Source: Marinoscillum sp. 108 (GTDB lineage Bacteria > Bacteroidota > Bacteroidia > Cytophagales > Cyclobacteriaceae). From it: a stretch of 64,000 nucleotides of DNA. Each line of letters begins with the position of its first letter. Position 1 is the stretch's first letter. Below are positions 54,921 through 60,617 of the stretch, piece after piece. Under the pieces are notes generated by a model. The model was given only the letters and a program-made list of their open reading frames with translations. It made no database searches and had not been told where the DNA came from. The translations under genes and the position numbers were made by a program. The stretch is taken from the NCBI RefSeq assembly GCF_902506655.1, contig NZ_LR734808.1, positions 2,602,501 through 2,666,500 on the forward strand, written 5' to 3'.

Positions 54921-57380
54921 TTACTCCTCCTTCAGATAATCCACCGGATTCATTCGGGAGGCTTTGAGGGTCTGAAAGCTCATGGTGATGACCGCAATTA
55001 GCAACATGAGCACGCCAGAGGCTACCAAGGTAAATACCGAAATAGTGGTGCGCATAGGGAAGCTCTCCAGCCATTGAGCCATCAGGTACCAGCTGAGTGG
55101 TGTAGCGATCACAAAACCAATCAGCAGCAGCCTGCCGAAGTTGCCCGAAAGGAGTATCCAGATGTTGGTAACCGAGGCACCGAGGACTTTTCTGATCCCG
55201 ATCTCCTTGTTGCGTTTCTCTATCACAAAAGCGACCAAACCGATCAGTCCCAGGCAGGCAATAAATATGGCCAGGGAAGCCAGGGCTTTCAGGATGTGGC
55301 TAAACCGAATGGTTTCCTTGAAGAACTGGAGAAATTCCTGATCCATAAAGGTGTAGTCAAAAGGTGCAGATGACTGAATGAGGTTCCAGTTGGATTCAAA
55401 GTCTGATAATAAGTCCATGGTCTCATCTGCGGTGAGGTCTCTCACCAGGCTCACCGTAAGCTCTGTAGAGGGATCTCTGAAGATAGGTGCGCTGGCGTCG
55501 AAAATGGCCGTAGGATAAATCTGATCAGAAAGGTTGCTGTTGAAATCGCGGACAATGCCAATGATCTTATAGTCCACCTCATTGTAAGTGATGGGTTGAT
55601 TCAGCGCATCCTCAGGGGTGTCAAACCCAAAGGATTTGGTCAGGGATTCATTGACGATGATGTGATGTGTTTCGGTGAACTCACGTGAGAAGTTTCTGCC
55701 CATCATGAGACTGAGTCCGTACACCTCCAGAAAGTGCTCGTCGCTGGTCAGGTAGTTGACGGAGATGTTTCTTTGCTCCTCTCCGTTCCGCACAAAGTTG
55801 TCAAAATCAAAGATCATGGGTGGGGTATCGGAGGAGTGTGAGACACGCTCCACCAGTGGGTGCTGCAATAGCATGTTTTCGTAAGCCTCCACTGAGGTGC
55901 CCAGTCGCTCGGCATGCTCAATGATGATTTTGTTTTCCCGATCGAAACCCAGGTCAGCGTTTTTCCAGAACTCTACCTGGTCCCGCACGATCAGCGTGCA
56001 GGTGATCATGGCGATGGAGATGGCAAACTGAGCAGTCACCAATGTATTTCTTGTGCGGGTACCACCGAGTCCCTGCATGTTTTTGCCTTTGAGTACCAGT
56101 GCGGGCCTGAATGAAGACAGATAAAAGGCAGGATAGAGTCCACTTAACAGACCGATCACCAGCGTGAGCACGAAGAGGACGAGAATAAAATCCGGGGAGA
56201 ATAACTGGGTAATGGAAATGCTTTTTGCGGTGATGCCATTGAAGGCAGGCAGGAGAAACTCTACCAGAAACAAAGAGACGATCACCGCGCCTATCACGTA
56301 AATGAATGACTCTACCAGAAACTGAACAATCAACTGTTTTCTTGCCGAGCCGATGACTTTTCTTATTCCCACTTCCTTGGCTCTGGTGGTGGCCTTTGCG
56401 GTGGATAGGTTCACAAAATTGATCATGGACAGGGTGAGGATGAGCCCGGCGATCAACCACAGTATATAGAGGGTATTGATGTCTGAGACTTCATTTAACC
56501 TGGAATACACGTGCGTGGAGCGCAGGTGAGTATCCAGAAAGGGCTGGATGTAGAGGTTCCATTCCTCGCCAGAGGCCAGAAACTCCTCATAGCTGATCCC
56601 TCTGTACTTTTGTAGAAAAGCCTCCAGGTATTTGCCGGGCACGGCTGCCACTTTCTGAGCCACCACGCCTGGGTCTGCATCTGCCCGGAGTAGCCCAAAG
56701 GTCACAAAGGTGGTCCACATCCAGGAGTCATCCGATTTTTTAACCCTGGGGAAGGACGACATGGAGAGGAGGAAGTCAAACTGAATGTGAGAATTGGCAG
56801 GAACATCCGCTGCCACACCCGTGATCAGGTAAGACTGCTTATTGGGTTGCTCGCCGAGTTCTAGCTGCTTGCCAAGGGCGTTTTCATTACCAAAGTATTT
56901 CTGAGCCATGCTGGCTGTCAGCACAATGCTCTTAGGGTTGATGAGGGCAGTCTTTGGGTTACCCTGGAGCAGCGGGAAGGTAAAGATTTCCAGAAAATTG
57001 GAGTCCACGGCCAAAAGGTGCTCTTCTTCGAAGACCTGTGGCTCACCCAGAGCATTGCTATGTGAGATCAAAAAATTACCCGGTGTGTGCACGCGGGTCA
57101 TGCTTTCAAACTCTGGCACCTCGCGCCAGAGCGCGCCCATCACCGCAGGGCCGGTGGAACCGAAAAGGGCATCGTCATCACCCCAGATAAAGGTCTGATT
57201 GATCCTATAAATCCGATCTCCCTGCTCATGAAATTGATCAAAGCTGAGCTCCTCATTGGAGTAAAGCCATACGAATATGCAGGACATCAGGCCGATGGAG
57301 AGCCCCAGGATATGGAGTAGGGTGAGAGAGCGCTGTCTTTTCACTCGTCTGAGTGCAATAGTAAGCAGGTTGCGGATCAT
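54921..57380 (-). CDS. FtsX-like ABC transporter permease (large two-domain form)
   Basis: The 819-aa protein has an N-terminal helix (about 20-41), a MacB-type periplasmic domain, three helices with the FtsX signature RAKEVGIRKVIGSARKQLI at about 340, then a second periplasmic domain. A final three-helix FtsX domain follows, with RNKEIGIRKVLGASVTNIW. This duplicated design is typical of the many MacB-like permeases of Cytophagales. No ATPase gene is adjacent, so the ATP-binding partner is elsewhere. The substrate is unknown. It is convergent with atpDC. Confidence 0.92.
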   Translation of the reverse strand: MIRNLLTIALRRVKRQRSLTLLHILGLSIGLMSCIFVWLYSNEELSFDQFHEQGDRIYRINQTFIWGDDDALFGSTGPAVMGALWREVPEFESMTRVHTPGNFLISHSNALGEPQVFEEEHLLAVDSNFLEIFTFPLLQGNPKTALINPKSIVLTASMAQKYFGNENALGKQLELGEQPNKQSYLITGVAADVPANSHIQFDFLLSMSSFPRVKKSDDSWMWTTFVTFGLLRADADPGVVAQKVAAVPGKYLEAFLQKYRGISYEEFLASGEEWNLYIQPFLDTHLRSTHVYSRLNEVSDINTLYILWLIAGLILTLSMINFVNLSTAKATTRAKEVGIRKVIGSARKQLIVQFLVESFIYVIGAVIVSLFLVEFLLPAFNGITAKSISITQLFSPDFILVLFVLTLVIGLLSGLYPAFYLSSFRPALVLKGKNMQGLGGTRTRNTLVTAQFAISIAMITCTLIVRDQVEFWKNADLGFDRENKIIIEHAERLGTSVEAYENMLLQHPLVERVSHSSDTPPMIFDFDNFVRNGEEQRNISVNYLTSDEHFLEVYGLSLMMGRNFSREFTETHHIIVNESLTKSFGFDTPEDALNQPITYNEVDYKIIGIVRDFNSNLSDQIYPTAIFDASAPIFRDPSTELTVSLVRDLTADETMDLLSDFESNWNLIQSSAPFDYTFMDQEFLQFFKETIRFSHILKALASLAIFIACLGLIGLVAFVIEKRNKEIGIRKVLGASVTNIWILLSGNFGRLLLIGFVIATPLSWYLMAQWLESFPMRTTISVFTLVASGVLMLLIAVITMSFQTLKASRMNPVDYLKEE

Positions 57381-57772
57381 AGGTTGTTCGGTTTGTGGCT
57401 ATTGGTGCCAAATGCTTGCCAGAAAGGGTAAGTTATTGAAAATAAGCAGATTGCTTTTTACCTGTACCTCAAAAATGGTCGGTGACGGACACTCTCTGTT
57501 CGCTCCTGACTGTGTAGTCACTCGGAAAAACCACACCGTTGCGTGTTTCACGCAAAGTTTAAAATACGGATATCACTCTAATATAACGGAATGCTATTGA
57601 GCAAATTTGTATAGCCATAAAACTAAAGAATGAAATGAAAACTTAAATCCAACAGATGACGAATGCCTGAATGTCTCCCACTGCCAGATTACAGCTATGA
57701 TCTGACAGCCAACTCACCGGGAGGGTCAAGGGCTAAACGTCATCTTAACACTCACAAATTAATATTAAGAAC
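57381..57772. other. Intergenic region between the permease and the first SiaC-like gene
   Basis: This 392-bp region contains the divergent control area. The first 190 bp must hold the minus-strand permease promoter, for which I see no exact TAnnTTTG match. The 57575-57614 stretch is the promoter-like block of the SiaC-like gene, followed by a 150-nt leader (57615-57772). An inverted repeat gtgtttcac near 57544 is also visible. No ORF or RNA gene is recognised. Confidence 0.6.
57575..57614 (+). promoter_or_regulatory. Promoter-like block, SiaC-like copy A
   Basis: This 40-bp block aligns without gaps to blocks before copies B and C (about 29 of 40 identical to C). It has CTCTAATAT near its start and a -7-like CAAATTTG at 57602-57609, followed by TATAG. 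The same spacing in all three copies points to shared regulation. Confidence 0.6.
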
Positions 57773-58201
57773 ATGATTACTCACTACGCTACAGACACCA
57801 CTCACCTCCATGGGTTTATTCCCAAATGGACCTCAAACCTGATGCTGGATTCCACAGGGGCCACTCCCTTTGTCAGCTATGATAAGGAGACAAAATTCCT
57901 GATTATCAAGGGACATGCCAGCGATCCTCATATACAGGAGTTTTTTGATCCTATCTTCTCGGCTGTAAAAAGAGATACTGTTGACTCCAAAAACCTGAGG
58001 GTCTACTTCTACTTCAAGTCGATGAACACGGGTACGGTAAGGGTTTTATTTGACCTGTTCAAATATTTGCGGGTGCGAGTGGCAGCAGGCACCAAAGTAC
58101 AGGTGGTTTGGGGTGCTGATGCCTGTGATCATGAAATGATGGAAACCGGGCGCGAGCTCTCAGAGCTATATGATTTGAATTTCAGATATTTGGCAGCCTA
58201 G
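57773..58201 (+). CDS. DUF1987/SiaC-family regulatory phosphoprotein, copy A
   Basis: The 142-aa soluble protein shows the DUF1987 (SiaC) plan: TPFVSYDKETKFLIIKG strand pair, the strand NLRVYFYFKSMNTGTVRVLFDLFKYL, then TKVQVVWGADACDHEMMETGRELSEL. In SiaC a Thr in the conserved NTS loop is phosphorylated by SiaB and dephosphorylated by SiaA, and unphosphorylated SiaC activates a diguanylate cyclase. Here the equivalent loop is NTGT at residues 85-88, with Thr86 or Thr88 as candidate. No siaA, siaB or siaD homologue is nearby. A terminator follows. Confidence 0.85.
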   Translation: MITHYATDTTHLHGFIPKWTSNLMLDSTGATPFVSYDKETKFLIIKGHASDPHIQEFFDPIFSAVKRDTVDSKNLRVYFYFKSMNTGTVRVLFDLFKYLRVRVAAGTKVQVVWGADACDHEMMETGRELSELYDLNFRYLAA

Positions 58202-58230
58202 GCGGTTAGGAAATTGGCGGCCAACAGGTG

Positions 58231-58261
58231 AAAGGTGACTCGGGATGGGTCACCTTTTTTT
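58231..58261 (+). terminator. Rho-independent terminator after copy A
   Basis: The stem aaggtgac pairs with gtcacctt around a loop and is followed by at least seven T residues, about 30 nt after the copy A stop codon. Each SiaC-like copy is thus its own transcription unit. Confidence 0.88.
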
Positions 58262-58526
58262 GTGTCTTTTAGAAAAAATCCTGCTAAACCGTTGCTCTGG
58301 AGATCGCCCAGTGCGTGATTCACAGAGTGACTCTACGCATATCTGACTCGAGCGGATCGCACTGTCCGAAATGCGCATAAAAGCTATTCCAATAGATCAT
58401 AGGCCTTATTTTCACCAGATTGAAAAGGGTTTTTCCTCCCTGTTGACTGATGGCATATTGCGGATATCCGCAGAGATGGAAGGAGAATGTTGCGCAAATC
58501 ACCCATTTTATCTAAATACTTGATTC
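58262..58526. other. Spacer between copies A and B
   Basis: No gene is recognised in these 265 bp. Parts resemble the spacer before copy C (59099-59350): both have taaaccgtt, a ttcacrgag-like stretch and aggcc-ttatttt in the same order. This suggests the duplication included whole spacers that have since decayed. An inverted repeat gcggatatccgc lies near 58459. Confidence 0.5.
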
Positions 58527-58566
58527 CCTCTTATATGGGGTCAGCAGGTATGGCATCTTTGTATTG
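58527..58566 (+). promoter_or_regulatory. Promoter-like block, SiaC-like copy B
   Basis: The 40-bp block has cctcttatat at its start and tggcatctttgtat at its end, the same as before copy C with equal spacing. The -7-like element is CATCTTTG (58554-58561), one mismatch from TAnnTTTG. The ATG at 58601 would lie about 33 nt after the start point. Confidence 0.65.
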
Positions 58567-58600
58567 TAGTTATTTGATAAGCACCCTAAAATTAAGAGCC

Positions 58601-59035
58601 ATGACAGTAAATCAGCATTCCTCTCGACCTTACAACCTTGACAGTCTTTCACTCATGGTGTCTCACTTCGGAACACGGGTGATAGAGCCTACTCCCAAAA
58701 CACCTTTCGTTTGTTATGATGAGTTCAACCAGGTGTTGATGGTGAAGGGAAATTCGACAAACCCGGATATGCAGAAGTTTTATCATGAGATACTGACTGA
58801 TGTGAAAGCCAACCTGGAGGAGACCGACCAACTGACCGTGAGCTTTTACTTTCAAAACATTAATACGAGTACGGCCAAAGTACTCTTTGATTTTTTCAAA
58901 TACCTGAGAAGTATGCGCGCTGTGGGTAAGCGTATACACGTCATCTGGAGTGCCGAAGCTGATAATGAGATGATGGAGACAGGTAGAGACTTTGCGGAGA
59001 TTTATGACATGGATTTTCACTACCTGGCTGCCTAA
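58601..59035 (+). CDS. DUF1987/SiaC-family regulatory phosphoprotein, copy B
   Basis: From the ATG at 58601 the protein is 144 aa. A longer in-frame reading from 58487 would run across the promoter block, so it is rejected. It shows the family plan: TPFVCYDEFNQVLMVKG, SFYFQNINTSTAKVLFDFFKYL, with NTST at residues 88-91, and the C-terminal EMMETGRDFAEIYDMDFHYLAA. Its N-terminal 25 residues differ from copies A and C. The candidate phospho-acceptors are Thr89 and Thr91. A terminator follows. Confidence 0.85.
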   Translation: MTVNQHSSRPYNLDSLSLMVSHFGTRVIEPTPKTPFVCYDEFNQVLMVKGNSTNPDMQKFYHEILTDVKANLEETDQLTVSFYFQNINTSTAKVLFDFFKYLRSMRAVGKRIHVIWSAEADNEMMETGRDFAEIYDMDFHYLAA

Positions 59036-59066
59036 GCAATAACAACCAGTTAATAGACCAACCAGC

Positions 59067-59098
59067 AAGGTGGTTCCTCTCAGGGGCCACTTTTTTTA
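59067..59098 (+). terminator. Rho-independent terminator after copy B
   Basis: The stem gtggttcc pairs with ggggccac (with two G-U pairs) around a tctca loop and is followed by seven T residues. It lies about 35 nt after the copy B stop codon. Confidence 0.85.
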
Positions 59099-59350
59099 TG
59101 CATTTTGGCCAATAGTCACCATTAAACCGTTTGATGGGAAGAGGGCTGCCTACGTAATTCACGGAGAAGAAATCCAACGATGCTCCTTTGTGCCCACTTT
59201 CCCATAAAGGCCCTTATTTTGACTATAATGGCCGATTTATGTACCAAATTGAGATTGAGCACTGAATTAATTTGATCCTGAATAGGTGCTGTCCGCCTGT
59301 CGAAAGTGAGCGCCTACGCAAAACACCTATTTTTCCCAATTGGTGGTTTC
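59099..59350. other. Spacer between copies B and C
   Basis: No gene is recognised in these 252 bp. The sequence shares scattered blocks with the A-B spacer (58262-58526), as expected if each duplication unit included its upstream DNA. An RNA or extra regulatory site cannot be excluded. Confidence 0.45.
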
Positions 59351-59390
59351 CCTCTTATATGACGGAAGGATGTATGGCATCTTTGTATAG
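59351..59390 (+). promoter_or_regulatory. Promoter-like block, SiaC-like copy C
   Basis: The block begins cctcttatat and ends tatggcatctttgtatag. It aligns without gaps to the blocks before copies A and B. The -7-like element is CATCTTTG at 59378-59385. The transcript leader to the ATG at 59539 would be about 145 nt, as for copy A. Confidence 0.65.
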
Positions 59391-59406
59391 TATTAGAAAC
59401 CAAACA

Positions 59407-59476
59407 ATAAAATGAAAACCTAAATCCATCAGATGACCAATGCCAGACGCCTCCCTTTGCAAAATCCAGCTATGAT
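59407..59476 (+). repeat. Leader block shared with copy A (57628-57700)
   Basis: The leader of copy C aligns with that of copy A through aatgaaaac-taaatcca, cagatgac-aatgcc, a cctccc/tctccc stretch and ccagctatgat. In both, an ATG (59412 and 57635) starts a three-codon frame MKT followed by TAA. Copy B lacks this leader. Confidence 0.65.
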
Positions 59477-59538
59477 TGAGCACTCTGAAAGTATCACCAA
59501 AGGCATTGCATCACTTAGATTTTAAAAACATTAAGAAC

Positions 59539-59973
59539 ATGATTACTCACTACGCCACAAATGCCGCCCTTGCCCACCAGTTCATCTCCAAAAGATCAGA
59601 ACTAACCATTGAACCTACCGTCAATACCCCGTTTTTGCGATACAGCAGTGCACATCAGCTGCTGATGATCAAAGGCAGCTCTGTGAAGCCAGACATGCAC
59701 GAGTTCTACAGTAATGCACTGGAAACTTTCAAAACCGAGCTTCGCGATAGCGACAGACTCAAAGTTTATCTGTGTTTCAAAGACCTGAATACCAGTACCG
59801 CTAAAGTATTGTTTGACCTTTTCAAATACCTGAGAACGCGTGCCCTGCGAGGTACGGATGTACAGGTGGTGTGGGGTGCGGAAGTCACCAACCAAGAAAT
59901 GATAGAAACCGGAAGAGACTTTTCAGAAATTTATGAATTGAAATTCAGGTTTCTGACGGATTTAGATTTTTAA
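59539..59973 (+). CDS. DUF1987/SiaC-family regulatory phosphoprotein, copy C
   Basis: The 144-aa protein begins at the ATG at 59539, where 26 bp spanning the start (59530-59555) are identical to copy A (57764-57789). Both therefore start MITHYAT. The family plan is intact: TPFLRYSSAHQLLMIKG, KDLNTSTAKVLFDLFKYLRTR with NTST at 84-87, and VVWGAEVTNQEMIETGRDFSEIY. Copies B and C keep NTST where A has NTGT. It converges on the pabC-like gene, with only a weak hairpin near 60000 between them. Confidence 0.85.
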   Translation: MITHYATNAALAHQFISKRSELTIEPTVNTPFLRYSSAHQLLMIKGSSVKPDMHEFYSNALETFKTELRDSDRLKVYLCFKDLNTSTAKVLFDLFKYLRTRALRGTDVQVVWGAEVTNQEMIETGRDFSEIYELKFRFLTDLDF

Positions 59974-60017
59974 CCAGCGTAGACAAATAACAGCGGGGTG
60001 GCCCAAATGGGGTCATC

Positions 60018-60617
60018 TCAGCTGTTTATCCCACGGACTTCACTCACGGGAAGCTCACTTTCCCCCAGGTCTACCATGGCATTGACCAGACTTACCTTTT
60101 CAAACGACCTGAGGTCGTCTATGGTCATTTCTACCTCCTTTATTTTACCCATACTGATCAGCTGCTGCCTTCTCACCCCATTGAGCAAATACGTCTTGGG
60201 TGTCCACCAGGCCTCTCCATCCCAGAAGACCACATTGGCAAAGTAGCTGTCGGTCAGGGCTCCCTTTTTCACTATCAATATTTCGTCTGCTGATCCGCGC
60301 TGCTCAAAGAGTTTCGTGAGCGCCTTGCGGTTTTCATACTTGTAAGTGTAGCTGATGGAGTCATCATGCACGAGCTGAATGCGCTTCAACGGGCGGAGTG
60401 TATACTGAGAAAACTCCACTTCGGTCAGCTCGCCATCATACACCACGCGCACCTTGTAGCGCTCCTCAAACGACAGTGCCGGCAAAGCGTCAGTGAGCTG
60501 ATGAGGGGGCATACCCGGAAAGTGTTTCTTGAATGTTCTGTCGACCCGCTGCTGGTGCCATGCCAGCATGGGATAAATTCCATTTTCAAAACAGATGGTT
60601 TCAATGAATCGGCTCAT
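60018..60617 (-). CDS. pabC: Aminotransferase class IV, probable aminodeoxychorismate lyase
   Basis: The 199-aa PLP protein resembles short Bacteroidota PabC proteins. The PLP Lys is likely in YTYKYENRKAL, and EILIVKKGALTDSYFANVVFW and PKTYLLNGVRRQQLI form the cofactor-binding half. It would convert aminodeoxychorismate to para-aminobenzoate. The pabB gene lies just upstream on the same strand (132-bp gap), which supports this over a branched-chain aminotransferase. Its product feeds FolP, encoded 50 kb away. Confidence 0.87.
   Translation of the reverse strand: MSRFIETICFENGIYPMLAWHQQRVDRTFKKHFPGMPPHQLTDALPALSFEERYKVRVVYDGELTEVEFSQYTLRPLKRIQLVHDDSISYTYKYENRKALTKLFEQRGSADEILIVKKGALTDSYFANVVFWDGEAWWTPKTYLLNGVRRQQLISMGKIKEVEMTIDDLRSFEKVSLVNAMVDLGESELPVSEVRGINS

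Follow-up and report, generated by a model that had tools for sequence, protein, structure and literature searches.

Why should a bacterium carry three SiaC-family genes in a row, with no siaA, siaB or siaD gene linked to them? The question is raised by a 64-kb window of the genome of Marinoscillum sp. 108 (the window being the whole stretch of DNA analysed), in which three intact genes of the + strand, here called A, B and C, lie between an FtsX permease gene and pabC. All three belong to the family PF09345, formerly DUF1987. The explanation that we favour, tentatively, is that A–C are inducible SiaC-fold switches that would be controlled by a NarL/LuxR-type regulator, served by SiaB in trans and docked on coiled coils, and would thus act as induced connectors. 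The trio and its shared promoter suggest that the SiaC family has here been rewired into a signalling network without cyclic-di-GMP.

Three intact SiaC-family genes

The original prediction, made from the letters of the DNA, described three tandem SiaC-like (DUF1987) genes with an FtsX permease and pabC as neighbours. Both points hold: all three proteins pass the Pfam cut-off of 24.5 bits, and Pfam identifies the flanking products as MacB/FtsX and a class IV aminotransferase. The conserved core that it claimed is present with small departures, the motifs being TPF, IIKG, NTGT and EMMETGRE in A, TPF, MVKG, NTST and EMMETGRD in B, and TPF, MIKG, NTST and EMIETGRD in C. Pairwise identity among the three is 46–49%. 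Gene C has an alternative start, TTG 59476, that would give 165 amino acids. The longest open reading frame of B begins at 58487 and contains the promoter element of that gene, so that translation of B probably starts at ATG 58601.

The differences between the genes at codon positions 1, 2 and 3 number 54, 26 and 81 for A and B, 49, 36 and 93 for A and C, and 48, 31 and 75 for B and C. Because differences are commonest at the third position and rarest at the second, none of the three looks decayed, and the pattern, as read from these comparisons, matches that of selected coding sequence. We therefore disfavour, as very improbable, the view that A–C are functionless duplicates adrift after copying. 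The class to which they belong does evolve fast, with long branches, as such a view would have it, but the codon-position pattern argues otherwise, as do the presence of SiaC at the FtsX/pabC site in four of five sister genomes and the intact promoter, reading frame and threonine of all three genes.

The SiaC fold was tested on B. A phmmer search of B against the PDB returned nothing up to E 0.1, and fold comparison was needed. The AlphaFold2 model of B has a predicted local distance difference test (pLDDT) score of 88 from a 44-row alignment, and all eight of its PDB matches at E ≤ 0.001 are SiaC chains of Pseudomonas aeruginosa; for 7e6g_D the E value is 5e-8, with template modelling scores of 0.78 and 0.89 and 21% identity. 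When relatives of B were sought in the genome contigs, 40 stretches matched a pattern, with no relative among them.

The trio thus resembles SiaC of the P. aeruginosa SiaABCD system (PDB 6K4F, 6KKP, 6KKO and 7E6G) in Pfam family and in the threonine of an N-T-[SG] loop. It differs in falling far below the NCBIfam SiaC equivalog NF038265, where A, B and C score 46.5, 45.7 and 51.7 bits against a cut-off of 150. In contrast to the Pseudomonas gene, moreover, A–C are tandem paralogues with one promoter each, lack linked siaA, siaB and siaD, and stand in a genome with no GGDEF match. A more distant likeness of the B model is to the STAS anti-sigma-factor antagonists SpoIIAA and RsbS (1h4y_A, E 0.04), which, in the portions of two papers that treat them, have partner-switch logic in common with the SiaC system (PMC7647112, PMC8457831). 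Unlike those antagonists, the trio has no STAS match among its Pfam matches up to E 1, and no anti-sigma kinase or sigma factor was seen beside it.

Searches of the whole assembly (5.2 Mb, 12 contigs, 99.7% complete) yield eight SiaC matches: one canonical gene, A–C and four more in a second array. The canonical gene belongs to a siaB-siaC pair of the Bacteroidota type (locus L017), from which the trio differs in lying outside its clade, in having no siaB and in its promoter. The clade was defined with 69 proteins, comprising all 60 SiaC matches of the six genomes of the genus (42 divergent, 18 canonical) and nine canonical proteins of four other genera; two partial rows were dropped to give a 67-row tree. 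In this tree the canonical proteins form one clade of 26 rows (support 100/99).

The promoter element and the genes that carry it

Comparison by eye of the regions upstream of A, B and C reveals one element, CTCTwAyAT followed after exactly 21 bases by TTTG or TTTA. The pattern CTCTWAYAT-N21-TTTR occurs three times in the window, solely at A, B and C, where 0.02 matches are expected, and the promoter-like block attributed earlier to each copy is thus real as a recurring pattern. The distance from element to start codon is 197 nucleotides (nt) for A, 187 nt for C and 73 nt for B. Since the three blocks are one element, the suggestion that the copies are used at different levels finds no support beyond these different leader lengths.

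Five matches are found in the whole genome, all upstream of small genes: those before A, B and C, one before a receiver-like gene and one before a gene for a small barrel protein that heads a SiaC operon of the second array. In front of divergent SiaC genes there is often a gene for such a protein, about 150 amino acids long, whose start resembles a signal peptide by eye, and which is modelled as an eight-stranded barrel (pLDDT 84) like NspA, OmpA and OmpX. Among the 31 element matches in the six genus genomes, 12 have a divergent SiaC or a barrel gene downstream and two a receiver-like gene, compared with a total of 15 matches of any kind when the pattern is read backward.

A weight matrix, trained for each genome only on sites from other genomes, gives a sharper view. 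It was applied to 42 operon heads, all from the genus (26 divergent SiaC and 16 barrel genes), and to 417 control genes from the same loci. The scoring read further into open reading frames; the element of B lies 3′ of its longest-frame start at 58487. Of the heads, 34 exceed the 99th percentile of the controls and 27 exceed every control. That percentile is passed by none of the 15 SiaC genes that stand immediately 3′ of a barrel gene, and by none of 26 canonical-clade SiaC genes (17 of the genus and nine of the four other genera). Three of the eight heads that fall short are barrel genes of sister genome G133 with a visible CTCTCGTTT variant at unchanged spacing. The data thus show both the element and its restriction to the class of divergent SiaC and barrel genes.

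The upstream half of the element, CTCTwAyAT, sits about where the usual −33 box would be, which could be explained by an activator site or by an alternative sigma factor. The downstream half is more familiar. An excerpt from work on Flavobacterium psychrophilum, of the same phylum, gives TAnnTTTG as the −7 box of the primary sigma factor, and the TTTG box fits it except that C or G replaces the first T (PMC9723704). Two other promoter readings were rejected. A sigma-70 scan gave two sites, compared with 4.8 in shuffled sequences, and neither lies at the elements; a sigma-54 −24/−12 promoter was dropped when its spacing, judged by eye against the consensus, did not fit.

The shared promoter expected of members of a NarL/LuxR-type regulon was found, and regulators of that type lie beside some of the operon heads. 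One stands directly 5′ of a barrel or SiaC gene at nine loci distributed over this genome, sister genomes and other genera (L018 of this genome, L093, L125, L202, L215, L217, L218, L220 and L235). Pfam detects a receiver and a LuxR-type helix-turn-helix in all four regulators scanned (L018, L230, L202 and L217). The end of the helix-turn-helix, LLEKTGCKN.AGLV, is exact in three of the nine linked regulators (L018, L217, L220) and nearly kept in four (L093, L125, L202, L235). It seems probable, from this association, that such a response regulator would read the upstream box.

Two observations concern the surroundings of these regulators. The second array (C1:1845735-1849252; positions 5177-9295 of L018, which spans C1:1840000-1856000) has the order barrel-SiaC, barrel-SiaC, SiaC, barrel-SiaC, with genes for sensor kinases and for a NarL-type regulator immediately 5′ of it. 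The receiver-like gene with the element (L230:3240-3593, − strand) lies directly after a NarL-type regulator, and its relative in G133, L132:1571-1969, also carries the element. The two receiver-like genes are 41% identical, and Pfam finds no receiver in either. In single pairwise BLAST comparisons their products match a receiver protein of L018 at 24–25% identity (E 8e-11 and 3e-12).

Kinases, a candidate docking partner and the acceptor threonine

In the mechanism that we propose, each of A, B and C would be transcribed from its own copy of the conserved promoter. The products would probably be served in trans by the SiaB kinases and SpoIIE/PP2C phosphatases of the genome, and in the unphosphorylated form they would attach to parallel coiled coils, in the manner of SiaC on the stalk of SiaD. 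A–C would then connect a two-component pathway with the SiaB/SiaC phospho-switch.

The enzymes for such a scheme are encoded away from the trio. The claim that the locus is without SiaA, SiaB and SiaD is correct for the window but not for the genome, where a search of the kind proposed with that claim finds two SiaB genes (PF19788) and six SpoIIE/PP2C matches above the cut-off (PF07228). Both SiaB proteins have an ExxQN motif and a C-terminal glycine-rich box, as judged by eye. One siaB lies directly before canonical siaC, and two of the SpoIIE-matching genes end 2.4 and 3.9 kb before it. The second siaB (L019:6682-7296; C1:3388858) has no SiaC gene nearby and is a candidate kinase for standalone SiaC proteins; second SiaB genes, on contigs with no SiaC match, are also present in G088, G133, G161 and G180 but not in G007. 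Sister genomes, of which five were sampled, have 8–12 SiaC matches and two SiaB genes each, except for the single SiaB of G007. More widely, SiaC is present in 130 of 196 sampled genomes of the family, and records near canonical SiaC include Ekhidna, Marinoscillum and Reichenbachiella. Among the best 80 canonical loci SiaB is directly upstream in 73 of the 79 in which SiaC was called; at four more SiaC lies at the very start of the retrieved stretch.

These counts bear on the idea first put forward for the locus, an orphan array of three phospho-switches, each with a dedicated distributed kinase and partner and each set at an independent level. The existence of kinases and phosphatases elsewhere leaves room for it, A–C are separate transcription units, and their identity is low. 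We nevertheless consider it quite improbable, since the genome has eight SiaC genes but two of SiaB and a single element stands at all three promoters. Overall, the observation behind the original prediction is confirmed and its interpretation partly supported.

The target of the switch cannot be a SiaD-type cyclase, since no GGDEF protein was found in the genome. The search for a diguanylate cyclase effector was negative in all six genus genomes, whereas the same search was positive in eight of 14 control genomes. The best candidate for a target is instead a protein containing RVSDRLQ that is encoded beside canonical siaC, although other coiled-coil signalling proteins could also serve. The gene next after canonical siaC encodes, in five of the six genus genomes, a protein with KVITRVSDRLQKKLD that by eye has a coiled coil and membrane-spanning stretches; the contig of the sixth, G161, breaks off inside canonical siaC. 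The copy of this genome, at L017:12389-12898, directly follows canonical siaC and has a coiled coil by eye. Part of the structural literature (PMC8457831, section 8) reports that SiaD contacts SiaC through R80, I81, S82, D83, R84, Y85 and Q86, which spell RISDRYQ and are identical to RVSDRLQ at five of seven positions. In 54 loci, 32 matches to the RVSDRLQ protein represent 28 genes, as four were fetched twice. The motif [RK]xSD[RK]xQ is present in 21 of these genes, six read SDRLH, and one is a partial match without the motif; among other gene calls it occurs in one of 511 and two of 798. A phmmer search of the RVSDRLQ protein against the PDB gave three weak matches, E 0.36 or worse, that were taken as chance. 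We infer from the motif that this protein may be the SiaC target in the place of SiaD.

In Pseudomonas SiaC, the residue that SiaB phosphorylates is T68, and when A, B and C are mapped onto that protein each has an equivalent threonine. All 27 canonical copies likewise keep it.

Several observations weigh against the inducible-switch explanation. The threonine is retained in 15 of 41 divergent copies and lost in the other 26, once to serine (one further divergent copy is gapped); all four copies of the second array of this genome have lost it, to A, A, P and S. Phosphorylation is thus dispensable for much of the divergent class, and a phospho-switch cannot be assumed class-wide, even though A, B and C keep the threonine. 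Ten SiaC matches stand against a single SiaB in G007. With regard to docking, only four of 14 SiaD-contacting residues are kept in canonical SiaC (Y65, N67, T68, S69), and three in each member of the trio (N67, T68 and E110 in A; N67, T68 and S69 in B and C), so that docking on RVSDRLQ must be put conditionally. A relative of the RVSDRLQ protein is found in 40 of the 196 family genomes, compared with 130 for SiaC, and the motif protein follows SiaC in nine of the best 80 canonical loci. On the side of transcription, 17 of the 31 genus element matches lie elsewhere, many of them within genes. The sites that trained the matrix were picked at these same loci in other genomes, and the promoter sites are in part duplication copies and not all independent. 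Two of the nine linked regulators (L215, L218) diverge from the conserved helix-turn-helix end, and no NarL-type regulator lies beside the trio or many other genus loci.

The main rival explanation, which we think rather unlikely, draws on the same losses. According to this proposal divergent SiaC proteins, A–C included, are phosphorylation-independent adaptors for the linker coiled coils of sensor kinases or for other partners; their sole control would be dosage through the shared promoter, and the threonine would be a relic under relaxed constraint. The contrast between 26 losses in divergent copies and none in canonical ones is in its favour, and some divergent SiaC genes do stand among two-component genes (L117, L123, L125). 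Retention of the threonine in the N-T-G of A, in the N-T-S of B and C and in 15 divergent copies overall speaks against it, as does the presence of two SiaB genes, each with the ExxQN box.

Barrel genes, descent and significance

The barrel protein was found in 26 of the 196 family genomes. Of four barrel proteins scanned, one had a Pfam match, below the cut-off, and three had none up to E 0.1. Of the 17 barrel genes of the genus, 15 have a divergent SiaC gene directly after them, one has a second barrel gene and then SiaC, and one has a gene for a different protein. Barrel genes are found at or beside the FtsX/pabC SiaC site in G007, G133 and G180. It is possible, but unlikely, that the whole class is an envelope module in which an outer-membrane barrel and a cytoplasmic SiaC-like protein act under a two-component regulator, with the trio as a side branch from which the barrel genes have been lost. 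The genus gene order, the presence of barrel genes at or beside that site in sister genomes and the barrel fold of the modelled partner favour such a module. Outside the genus, however, SiaC directly follows only seven of the 34 barrel genes examined (of 39), and we know of no pathway that joins an outer-membrane barrel to cytoplasmic SiaC. Several other non-genus barrel genes are followed, by eye, by a lipoprotein-like protein of about 190 amino acids; two of these were scanned without a Pfam match.

A feature of the leaders of A and C also counts in favour of the module. Both contain a short Met-Lys-Thr-stop frame, ATGAAAACTTAA at 57635 in A and ATGAAAACCTAA at 59412 in C, which begin 59 and 60 nt 3′ of the element start; barrel genes mostly start at 60–75 nt. 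The common form, ATGAAAAC[TC]TAA, thus lies near the barrel-gene start position of other operons, and may be the vestige of a barrel gene since lost, or chance. The window trio has no barrel gene. A tblastn search of positions 53–62 kb with 16 barrel proteins disclosed no convincing remnant, the best match (E 0.019) being on the opposite strand, and this counts against an envelope module. The leaders have 51 nt in common at 86%. That of A (57610-57755) folds better than shuffled sequences (z-score −3.1), and that of C (59386-59530) shows no unusual fold (z-score −0.5). The terminators ascribed earlier to A and B are both recovered, each with a T run (Table 1).

Table 1. Coordinates of the SiaC-family genes, their control elements and their flanks in the 64-kb window
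Feature	Positions	Strand	Basis
SiaC-like gene A, 142 amino acids	57773..58201	+	PF09345 71.1 bits; N-T-G at T68 site
SiaC-like gene B, 144 amino acids	58601..59035	+	PF09345 82.2 bits; N-T-S at T68 site
SiaC-like gene C, 144 amino acids from ATG 59539	59539..59973	+	PF09345 73.4 bits; N-T-S at T68 site
Promoter element of A, CTCTAATAT-N21-TTTG	57576..57609	+	exact pattern match
Promoter element of B, CTCTTATAT-N21-TTTG	58528..58561	+	exact pattern match
Promoter element of C, CTCTTATAT-N21-TTTG	59352..59385	+	exact pattern match
Long leader of A, with Met-Lys-Thr-stop frame ATGAAAACTTAA	57610..57772	+	sequence
Long leader of C, with Met-Lys-Thr-stop frame ATGAAAACCTAA	59386..59538	+	sequence
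Terminator of A, 13-pair stem then T run	58230..58258	+	fold z-score −4.6
Terminator of B, 12-pair stem then T run	59067..59093	+	fold z-score −3.0
Hairpin between C and convergent pabC, possible terminator without good T run	59995..60019	+	fold of 59985-60030, z-score −6.1
MacB/FtsX permease, conserved left flank of genus SiaC site	54921..57380	−	Pfam; synteny
pabC-type class IV aminotransferase, conserved right flank	60018..60617	−	PF01063; orthologues located in genus genomes

A search among relatives, also suggested with the original prediction, finds SiaC at the FtsX/pabC site of G007, G133, G180 and G161, either between the two flanking genes or next to them; in G088 the two flanking genes are direct neighbours with no SiaC between them. 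In the tree A groups with the same-site copies of G133, G180 and G161 (support 81/82), and B and C have no resolved placement among the 67 rows; several branches are long and the finer placings unsure. Because the nearest relatives of A are same-site copies in sister genomes, the trio did not arise by a single local triplication. To judge from the tree, it is an old, turning-over array.

Other divergent SiaC genes of the genus have their own settings. In four sister genomes (L092, L096, L098, L101) one lies between genes for a flavin adenine dinucleotide-dependent and a haemolysin-III-related protein, in kept order; L092, whose proteins were those run against Pfam, holds two at this site. In three (L118, L121, L124) an element-less divergent SiaC directly precedes an M16 peptidase of about 945 amino acids, assigned by Pfam. 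G007 has near-identical divergent SiaC genes on different contigs (L102, L103), one with a partial second copy at the contig end; the pair may have arisen by recent duplication or be an artefact of the assembly. Absent from the original prediction were the barrel partner, the second array with its four copies, the link to NarL-type regulators and the lack of GGDEF.

Little has been written on this family. DUF1987 was found only in the SiaC–SiaD structure paper, where it is suggested that modulation of adjacent proteins is a common role of the domain. Among the papers listed on SiaC, Bacteroidetes and partner switching, titles and the starts of abstracts concern Pseudomonas SiaABCD or unrelated matters, with none on the trio, and no literature was found for two NCBI product names of the proteins; most subscription literature lay outside the search, which makes this weak evidence of absence. 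A more general picture, doubtful though it is, can be drawn for Cytophagales that lack GGDEF: SiaC connectors defined by the promoter and induced by a response regulator, some phospho-regulated and some phospho-blind, would compete on R-[IV]-S-D-R-x-Q coiled coils and be coupled to the small outer-membrane barrel, forming a circuit from transcription to phospho-switch for which the literature searched holds no precedent.

This genus, with 8–12 SiaC matches and no GGDEF match in each of six genomes, is a place to ask what SiaC does outside Pseudomonas. The promoter element defines a regulon that is small and testable; for the binding partner, the RVSDRLQ protein is a concrete candidate. The coexistence in one genome of copies with and without the T68 threonine provides a natural experiment on phospho-control.

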